From the NCBI GenBank assembly GCA_001637315.1, contig LSZA01000007.1:1-64000 (forward strand): 64,000 nucleotides of DNA. The letters are read 5' to 3'. The notes under the pieces were generated by a model. That model worked only from the letters and a program-made list of their open reading frames with translations. It had not been told where the DNA came from and ran no database searches. The first letter of the stretch is position 1. Each line of letters opens with the position of its first letter. This document shows, piece by piece, positions 34,170 through 59,356 of the stretch. The stretch comes from Phormidium willei BDU 130791 (GTDB lineage Bacteria; Cyanobacteriota; Cyanobacteriia; Cyanobacteriales; Geitlerinemataceae). The position numbers were made by a program, and so were the translations under genes.

Positions 34170-34251
34170 GACGGAAAGGCGCTAGTCCTGAACGCTAACT
34201 ACAGGTGACGCTCTCTACTGTACCGTACTGTGTTAATCACGAGTAGACAGC

Positions 34252-34278
34252 AAAAAAGCCCCGACCATCGGGGCTTTC
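34252..34278 (-). terminator. Intrinsic terminator of the cold-shock-type gene
   Basis: AAAGCCCCGA and TCGGGGCTTT form a GC-rich hairpin with a 3-nt loop; on the minus strand it is followed by TTTTTTG. It lies about 25 bases beyond the stop of the cold-shock-type gene. Confidence 0.9.
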
Positions 34279-34302
34279 AGAAATTCAGAGTTAACCTAAC
34301 GC

Positions 34303-34515
34303 CTAAATCACGGTGACGTTTTGGGCTTGAGGACCTTTCTGTCCTTGTTCAACGGTGAACTGGACTTTTTGACCTTCTGCGAGGGTTTTGAAGCCGTCGT
34401 CAACAATGGCTCGGAAATGGACGAACACATCAGGTCCGCCGTTTTCCTGGGTAATAAAACCAAATCCTTTCTCTTCGTTGAACCACTTGACGGTTCCGGT
34501 AACTTGACTTGACAT
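34303..34515 (-). CDS. Cold-shock domain protein
   Basis: A 70-residue single cold-shock domain, an RNA chaperone that binds single-stranded RNA and DNA. Starts at 34515 ([17 protein letters not shown]); the frame is open further upstream but that extension is not homologous. RNP1 KGFGFI is at 16-21 and RNP2 VFVHF at 30-34; the rest ([24 protein letters not shown]) is typical. Full cyanobacteria often use RRM-type RNA-binding proteins instead, so a true CspA-like gene is noteworthy but not rare. The transcript is ended by the hairpin at 34252-34278. The long region upstream (34516-34650) is its leader. Confidence 0.95.
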
Positions 34516-35321
34516 AATTGAGTGTATCCTGGGTAAAAACTGGATTTGGTCAAAGAAAACTTCAGAGTCTTCACGTAAAACTCCTGGGAGGGTTGGAAGC
34601 TCCGTGATTGATCGCGGAGAGGAAAACCGACTCAAGCGGCTTTAGCCGCCAGCACCCCCTTGCGGAATGGAGGGGTATGGTTGCCCCTCCATAGAGCTAT
34701 GGTTGGCTCCAACTCCCTTGCGGGGTAATGTTTGCTATGCGCTAACGCGCACGCTGCGCGAACGCTAATGTTCAGAGTCGGTACTTTCCCAATCGCACGG
34801 TCTTAACCCCTTAGGACTGTTTAACGATTCGGTTCTAGAGCCGGGAACTAGCACGCATTCCCAGGTAGGAACTTTAACTCTTGCTCTGAACGTAGCCAGT
34901 TAAGGCTTAAGCTGGTCAGCTATTCTGTTGCCGGGGGCACGAAGTCCCCGTGCTTCAGCCGGGGGTGCTGACGATGCGCTTGGGGTTCTAGTCCGTATCG
35001 TCGTTTCTTGACCGCTTTGGTGTTGATTGCCTATCCCCTCAAGACTCGAACTCAACCTTACCAATAAAACCTAAGAATTGTCAAGCCTTAATTTAGAAAT
35101 TTAGAGTCAACTTTCTCGAAGGTTTCCCACAAAATTGTTGGGCAAGGAGCCGTCATTTTTACCAAGCTTCGACCAACTTTCCTTAACGGGTGGGCAATCC
35201 AGGTTTGTGGGACTTCCAACTTTTCCCGGCAGCCACCCCAGCGTTGGGCAGAAAAATCGAGGGATTTTTAGGCAAAAATTCCCCAATTTGGGCGAATCAT
35301 TTCTAGCCCTTGGGCCGTAGC
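34516..35321. other. Large non-coding interval around the cold-shock-type gene leader
   Basis: About 800 bases without a convincing gene. The first 130 bases are the leader of the cold-shock-type gene and include an inverted repeat GCGGCT/AGCCGC (34636-34649). The central 321 bases are the structured element at 34650-34970. The rest, 34971-35321, includes a hairpin GACGATGCG/CGTATCGTC (about 34969-35004) and otherwise shows only AT-rich text. Confidence 0.7.
34650..34970 (+). ncRNA. Orphan structured element, candidate HEARO/omega-RNA-like RNA or IS200/IS605-type remnant
   Basis: A 321-bp block bounded by a perfect 10-bp inverted repeat, CAGCACCCCC (34650-34659) and GGGGGTGCTG (34961-34970). 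Inside are GGAGGGG/CCCCTCC (34669-34675/34684-34690), CCATAG/CTATGG (34689-34702), GTTGG/CCAAC (34702-34713), a GCGC palindrome cluster (about 34738-34765), GTTCAGAG (34770-34777) pairing with CTCTGAAC (34884-34891), CGGTTC/GAGCCG (34830-34843), GGGAA/TTCCC (34843-34862), CCAGTTAA/TTAAGCTGG (34896-34915) and GCACG/CGTGC (34937-34953). The nested arrangement suggests RNA structure. No ORF is inside. Strand is inferred and could be the reverse. Confidence 0.5.
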
Positions 35322-58977: not shown

Positions 58978-59356
58978 GGAAGTCTTTTATGAAGGAGGTC
59001 CCCATATCGGCGACCTCGTTTTCAATATCTTAATTGGTTTAACGGTCATCGGCTTACCTCTAACCGTTGGCGCTGTCATCCGCGCCCTCTGGCTACGGTT
59101 TCGGATTACGAACCGTCGTCTGTCGGTGACGGGAGGCTGGATGGGACGCGATCGCACCGATGTGGTCTACTCAGAAATTCGCAAAATTGTCACCGTTCCC
59201 CGAGGCTTCGGACTCTGGGGCGATATGGTTCTCACCCTACAAGGAGGCAGCCGACTCGAACTGCGAGCGGTCCCTCAATTTCGAGAGGTGTACAATTACA
59301 TTCAAGAGCATTTATCTCCCGAGGCCCAACAAGTTAGTGGCTCTTTGGGACAATAA
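58964..59356 (+). CDS. PH-domain (bPH2-type) membrane protein
   Basis: A 130-residue protein with one transmembrane segment (about 15-42, LVFNILIGLTVIGLPLTVGAVIRALWL) and a C-terminal bacterial PH domain: RFRITNRRLSVTGGWMGRDRTDVVYSEIRKIVTVPRGFGLWGDMVLTL. It sits between rnpA and yidC, its usual place in cyanobacteria. Its role is unknown but the location suggests membrane protein biogenesis. Start ATG lies inside the rnpA gene. Confidence 0.87.
   Translation: MGIREEVFYEGGPHIGDLVFNILIGLTVIGLPLTVGAVIRALWLRFRITNRRLSVTGGWMGRDRTDVVYSEIRKIVTVPRGFGLWGDMVLTLQGGSRLELRAVPQFREVYNYIQEHLSPEAQQVSGSLGQ

Follow-up and report, generated by a model that had tools for sequence, protein, structure and literature searches.

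We analyzed a 64,000-nt stretch of the Phormidium willei BDU 130791 genome (the window) and identified in it a 398-bp insertion, for which the best explanation is probably a non-autonomous IS200/IS605-type element, an ORF-less HEARO, that encodes a stand-alone IscB omega-RNA. We favored this explanation because the insertion matched the HEARO model over its full length, the genome carried IscB genes with a related omega-RNA, a relative retained the empty site, and the copies ended at GTGA. It drew further support from a conserved TTGACA hexamer upstream, a Y1 transposase gene in the genome, covariation in a 3' tail, the presence of a HEARO core upstream of nearly every testable tail of this kind, and the stand-alone omega-RNAs reported in PMC9581776. 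The pairings described in a first-pass annotation of the region were found again, but its boundary, its strand and its statement that no ORF lies inside or beside the block did not hold; the strand, the true ends, the neighboring cold-shock gene csp and the conserved tail had all been missed.

The HEARO core, the ends and the insertion site

The covariance-model search that the first-pass annotation had proposed returned the Rfam family RF02033 (HEARO) on the minus strand at 34972-34725, with the full model (positions 1-211) matched at 139 bits against a cut-off of 83, and the functional strand is the minus strand, which corrects the first reading. This HEARO/IscB omega-RNA scaffold (34725-34972) carried near its 3' end a GC-rich palindromic stretch of ~25 nt (34739-34765, minus strand), which appeared as an insert in the Rfam alignment, was present in some sister copies and was missing from L084 and L098. 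No iscB was found in or beside the element at 34575-34972; the ORF-less state of HEARO elements is already known. The HEARO/omega-RNA-like and IS200/IS605-type identities had been offered as alternatives, and both names are right for this ORF-less HEARO with IS200/IS605-like ends. The element is a new HEARO member that its tail sets apart as a variant. A TnpB guide RNA was rejected as its identity, as no tnpB-like ORF was seen around the locus when the ORF list was inspected by eye and the scaffold matched HEARO.

The block first described (34650-34970) folded better than its shuffles on either strand, with z-scores of -5.24 for the plus and -4.58 for the minus strand and none of 100 shuffles as good. 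The perfect 8-bp long-range pair GTTCAGAG/CTCTGAAC (34770-34777 and 34884-34891) was present and proved to be one long-range helix of the HEARO model, and an 8-bp repeat with arms at least 50 nt apart also occurred in 109 of 300 shuffles of the block. The perfect 10-bp repeat CAGCACCCCC/GGGGGTGCTG (34650-34659 and 34961-34970) was likewise there, within a 13-nt pair that was 92% complementary; it lay outside the HEARO model, with its left arm overlapping the first helix of the model, and repeats of 10 bp whose arms stood 100 nt or more apart turned up in 18 of 1000 dinucleotide shuffles of the block. Single repeats of this kind are weaker evidence than the folding of the whole block relative to shuffles. 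The 10-bp repeat had been taken to close the block, and as a boundary it was ruled out by the empty site described below, which set the ends at 34575 and 34972 and left the repeat internal.

The empty site was found in G002, a genome of the same genus, where the bases corresponding to 34973 and 34574 were directly joined (CTAGAACCCCAAGCGCATC followed by GTGAAGACTCTG) and the flanks were 97.5% identical over 40 nt and 96.3% over 326 nt. Since the G002 flanks join directly, the element spans 34575-34972 (398 bp, minus strand), with its 5' end at 34972 (GTCAGC...) and its 3' end (...TTTTAC) before GTGA, and was inserted exactly and without target duplication. All five same-genus csp loci that were aligned (G001-G005; G006, the sixth same-genus genome, was left out) were free of the element. 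HEAROs as a rule insert directly 5' of RTGA, and the GTGA at the right junction of this exact empty site conforms to that rule. The search for further copies and empty sites, another check proposed at first, also identified three more HEAROs in the genome and sister ORF-less copies that occupy different positions in G001 and G003. Sister ORF-less copies at other sites were 90 and 93% identical end to end. Sister copies started and stopped at the same points as the window element, and the copy of Arthrospira sp. PCC 9108 was also 398 bp long. All 10 ORF-less-type copies compared had GTGA at their right end, while the 17 left flanks compared (ORF-less and IscB-bearing copies) were all different. 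In the window's own genome the ORF-less type was represented by a single copy, which we counted against our explanation. One HEARO of G005 (L085) had a seemingly duplicated left end and first helix region.

The right end (34575-34649, minus strand) contained two hairpins, at 34636-34649 and 34600-34619, and these hairpin ends, together with insertion without target duplication, are features of IS200/IS605 elements. The element looks chimeric, since this right end was like the right ends of L109 and L110, which belong to another IscB subfamily, and, in inverted orientation, like the upstream ends of the TnpB elements L015 and L018 in the same genome.

Each of the three other HEAROs in the genome was followed by an open IscB gene of 423-431 aa with RRXRR and HNH domains, and one of them, at C32, had an omega-RNA 93% identical to that of the window over 210 nt. 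Their HEARO scores were 142.1, 160.2 and 162 bits. The lower score of the window copy, its lack of iscB and the palindromic insertion in its scaffold would fit an inert relic, a HEARO stripped of its iscB that survives as no more than a scar in the csp leader, and a Limnospira indica transcriptome paper (PMC8400943) regards HEARO RNAs as post-mobility remnants. We consider such a relic unlikely, as the sister ORF-less copies were nearly identical at other sites and the tail showed compensatory changes at many loci; these two observations together indicate that elements of this type have been mobile and under selection. A fourth RRXRR protein in the genome (L008, G000:C49:20104-20637; 433 aa) had no HNH match and no adjoining HEARO match, and matches of similar score occurred in G001, G003 and G006.

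A conserved 3' tail domain in place of iscB

The HEARO scaffold was followed, ahead of the right end, by a tail of 78 nt (34652-34729, minus strand), located where IscB-bearing copies have the start of iscB. The tail contained twin hairpins with the same loop, CAACCAUA: H2 (34693-34710, GGAGC-CAACCAUA-GCUCU), a covarying stem with a strongly conserved loop, and H3 (34669-34690, GGAGGGG-CAACCAUA-CCCCUCC), all on the minus strand. These were followed by H4 (34656-34667, minus strand, UUCC-GCAA-GGGG) and preceded by a hairpin region, H1 (34715-34726, minus strand, ACCCC-GCAA-GGG), which by eye corresponds to the presumed ribosome-binding region of iscB; at this place the IscB-bearing locus L003 reads, also by eye, ACCCAGAAATGGAG-AATCC-ATG. 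H1 was left out of the counted structure.

We aligned nine tails from four genera of four families, including that of the window, by MAFFT (alignment A2), and chose the structure after the sequences had been seen. In A2, 89.6% of the cells were paired and 12 double changes were counted against a shuffle mean of 3.9, while none of 500 shuffles reached the covariation score; the H4 stem and H3 failed in some rows (L118, L119, L120). A covariance model built from A2 (R1) gave 83 matches in 82 sources chosen for holding the tail, and it scored the window tail, which is among the nine model-building sequences, at 99.8 bits. The resulting alignment A6 (66 distinct rows) had 94.8% of its cells paired and 67 double changes against a shuffle mean of 16.4. 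H3 showed double changes at 2 of its 7 pairs in A6, and H4 entered the covariation counts on both alignments. Because A6 was aligned with R1 its counts lean towards the structure; A2, which was aligned independently, agrees. Compensatory base changes, whose absence the first-pass annotation would have held against its reading, are thus present in the 3' tail, the part in which we looked for them. Rfam scans named no family for the tail, and no description of such tails was found among the literature matches listed (titles and abstract openings), a scope outside which lie the founding HEARO and omega-RNA papers, which could hold one. The tail therefore appears to be an undescribed conserved RNA-like fold. 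Short ORFs in the tail, judged by eye, differed between copies, and an encoded peptide was rejected.

The tail pattern CAACCATAN{8,14}GGGGCAACCATACCCC was searched in a genome collection of 84,980 species and in viral contigs. This search identified 71 loci, all with cyanobacterial titles, and one viral contig (L321) with a HEARO core followed by the CAACCAUA tail. A HEARO core, whole or cut, lay directly upstream in 62 of the 63 testable loci when a nhmmer profile was used; 50 of these cores were at least 200 nt long and 12 were shorter (10 cut by the end of the stretch, L320 by an N run, and L312 at 172 nt). The remaining 10 of the 72 loci were six with less than 70 nt upstream, three with an N run, and L284, which had no core in the 187 nt available. 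An IscB fragment within 1.5 kb was seen at one of the 72 loci (L278), although at 44 of the 72 the sequence stopped short of 1.5 kb on one side or more, or contained N within that distance. Among 44 sources, R1 matched none of the 20 IscB-bearing or IscB-remnant loci. Across 388 genomes of the class, 31 had an R1 match at E of 0.01 or less, and 14 matches, in 7 genomes, exceeded 30 bits. Matches below ~30 bits were set aside; many occurred several per contig, among them seven in the 1.4-kb L189 with an array-like look. A weak R1 match in the window itself, at 59198-59294 (E 0.31), lay in no repeat.

We also asked on which strand the tail pairs are kept. G-T pairs outnumbered A-C pairs by 8 to 3 in A2 and by 29 to 19 in A6, and since the latter is not decisive this test does not prove an RNA role for the window tail; on the right-end hairpins it was uninformative, with just 3 distinct hairpins. 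The slight excess in A6 would be in line with a tail that acts as single-stranded DNA, a cis-acting part for the Y1 transposase, rather than as RNA, and so would two loci that R1 identified, L179 and L181: the tail persists in the former although the HEARO core is mostly missing, and in the latter it adjoins the right end. Both elements retained tail and right end and had lost most or all of the core. A role as DNA nevertheless seems improbable to us, about as much as a relic does, as the tail was absent from the 20 IscB-bearing or IscB-remnant loci, which have such ends too, and as the pseudoknot tails of other ORF-less HEAROs (see below) had G-T but no A-C pairs on the RNA strand.

The csp leader, the guide and the proposed mechanism

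The block had been described as having no ORF inside or beside it; we found that csp, which encodes a 70-aa cold-shock domain protein (34303-34515, minus strand; PF00313, 107.3 bits), starts at 34515 on the same strand as the element, with 59 bp from its ATG to the element. The gene gave the best of three CSD matches in the genome. The Rfam cspA thermoregulator family RF01766 matched 34251-34585 on the minus strand (93.6 bits, cut-off 78), covering the csp leader and gene; apart from the first 11 nt of the match, which lie inside the element, the element is outside it. Thus the adjoining csp leader and gene resemble the family, whereas the HEARO element breaks up the leader and does not belong to the family. 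Upstream of the insertion we noted a putative csp promoter (35055-35084, minus strand) with TTGACA at 35084-35079 and, by eye, a -10 hexamer TAAGGT at 35060-35055. The TTGACA was invariant in all six csp upstream regions aligned, with -10-like hexamers behind it by eye, and a scan with a generic promoter consensus did not flag the site. The insertion is thus in sense orientation within the presumed leader of csp, and a conserved promoter-like site lies upstream of it.

According to PMC9640706, an omega-RNA has at its 5' end a guide of ~16-17 nt, and its target must adjoin a motif. Because the element is inside the csp leader, its 5' guide would be csp-leader sequence, presumably the 16 nt adjoining the HEARO 5' end (34973-34988, minus strand). 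The same 16 nt, followed by GTGAAG, were found in the G002 empty site. In its own genome the guide had one exact match (this locus), one site with one mismatch (at C125) and five with two mismatches, while the reversed pattern used as a control gave 4 matches in all. We counted the one-mismatch site at C125 against our explanation.

Candidate partners for a stand-alone omega-RNA are encoded elsewhere in the genome. A Y1 transposase gene was present at C13, beside a TnpB gene, along with a weak Y1 match at C88. Stand-alone omega-RNAs can work with IscB, so that a downstream iscB is not required, according to PMC9581776. We propose that a Y1 transposase, for which the C13 gene is the candidate, could move the element in trans, and that the csp promoter would transcribe it, or that an RNA would be cut from the csp transcript, as guide, scaffold and tail. 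A genomic IscB may bind this omega-RNA in trans and cut alleles with an empty csp leader, in which the target is followed by GTGA. If IscB cuts empty csp alleles, the element would therefore be kept and copied back; retention of IS200/IS605 elements by the cutting of empty sites is described for TnpB in PMC11870625. The tail would most likely stabilize or finish the stand-alone RNA, or bind a partner via its two CAACCAUA loops. The insertion might instead have come to regulate csp by extending its leader RNA and so altering cold-shock expression; in favor of this, it lies in sense inside the leader, with a conserved promoter-like site on one side and the genome's best cold-shock domain gene on the other. 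Such a role seems very unlikely, because the csp loci of the five same-genus relatives aligned lack the insertion and the site thus gives no sign of conservation.

Other ORF-less HEAROs and known systems

The element resembles the HEARO RNA (RF02033) and IscB omega-RNAs in its full-length match, the 5' position of its guide and its insertion before GTGA, and differs from them in having no iscB and in carrying a conserved tail domain after the scaffold. Like the stand-alone omega-RNAs of PMC9581776 it has no effector gene attached and an effector elsewhere in the genome; unlike in that work, whose accessible text mentions no tail domain, trans activity is here inferred. With IS200/IS605 elements that carry TnpB it shares the absence of target duplication, subterminal hairpins and a right end similar to the upstream end of TnpB elements in the same genome, whereas it lacks tnpA and tnpB and has an IscB-type guide RNA at its other end. 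A 343-nt HEARO RNA from Limnospira maxima, studied by cryo-EM in PMC12286853, is longer than the 211-position Rfam model. Both it and the window RNA are cyanobacterial HEAROs, and the Arthrospira copy is of the same 398-bp kind with the tail; the 343-nt RNA may or may not contain a tail of the window type.

We also surveyed HEAROs in 59 genomes, comprising the window's own and its relatives. Among the matches listed, 75 of 150 HEAROs lacked a listed IscB match in the 900 nt that follow, an approximate count. As about half of the listed HEAROs thus lack a listed iscB, stand-alone omega-RNAs may be a common form in these bacteria. IscB fragments were found after all in 7 of 60 such ORF-less HEAROs examined. 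The remaining 53, sorted by eye, comprised 23 whose tail was window-like except for having a single middle hairpin, 13 ending in a pseudoknot, two further kinds with 7 and 5 members, and 5 that were unclassified or cut. Rfam scans of 12 ORF-less loci with other tails named HEARO as the sole family. RNAalifold on the 23 tails of alignment A4 gave double changes at 2 of 13 pairs, with the second hairpin shifted by MAFFT, and was counted as no support.

The H-type pseudoknot tails came from G015, G044 and G051 (L200, L209, L210, L218, L219, L221, L223, L230, L231, L237, L242, L245, L249). In the 12 of these 13 that were aligned (L231 was left out), 180 of 180 cells were paired and 36 double changes were counted against 11.0 in shuffles, while further pair types (18 against 18.5 in shuffles) showed no excess. 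The strand test was clear, with 11 G-T and no A-C pairs on the RNA strand. A further long structured tail, TTATGCGTACAGGGTTG...GGCGGTAATG, was seen behind the ORF-less HEAROs L194, L195, L205, L206 and L212 (G014, G044, G047). When these five tails, which make up the fourth kind, were folded, double changes occurred at 7 of 38 pairs.

We tentatively suggest, as a possibility for which the odds are below even, that the stand-alone omega-RNAs of cyanobacteria may be a distinct class of trans-acting guides that gained 3' domains of their own in place of iscB, rather than mere deletion products. Such domains (twin CAACCAUA hairpins, the pseudoknot and others) might stabilize the RNA or recruit a partner, and the RNA described here might have captured a cold-shock leader as both promoter and guide. 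Such a capture would tie RNA-guided cutting to cold shock. If they have conserved 3' domains of their own, the loops and the pseudoknot would be handles on how a guide RNA is made and kept without an effector gene, and on why such elements spread. The csp insertion offers a clean natural case, since relatives retain the empty site, the guide is an exact match to one of these sites, and the genome carries iscB at other loci. By eye, another type of tail was seen in G044 alone (L216, L227, L228, L240, L241, L244, L248).
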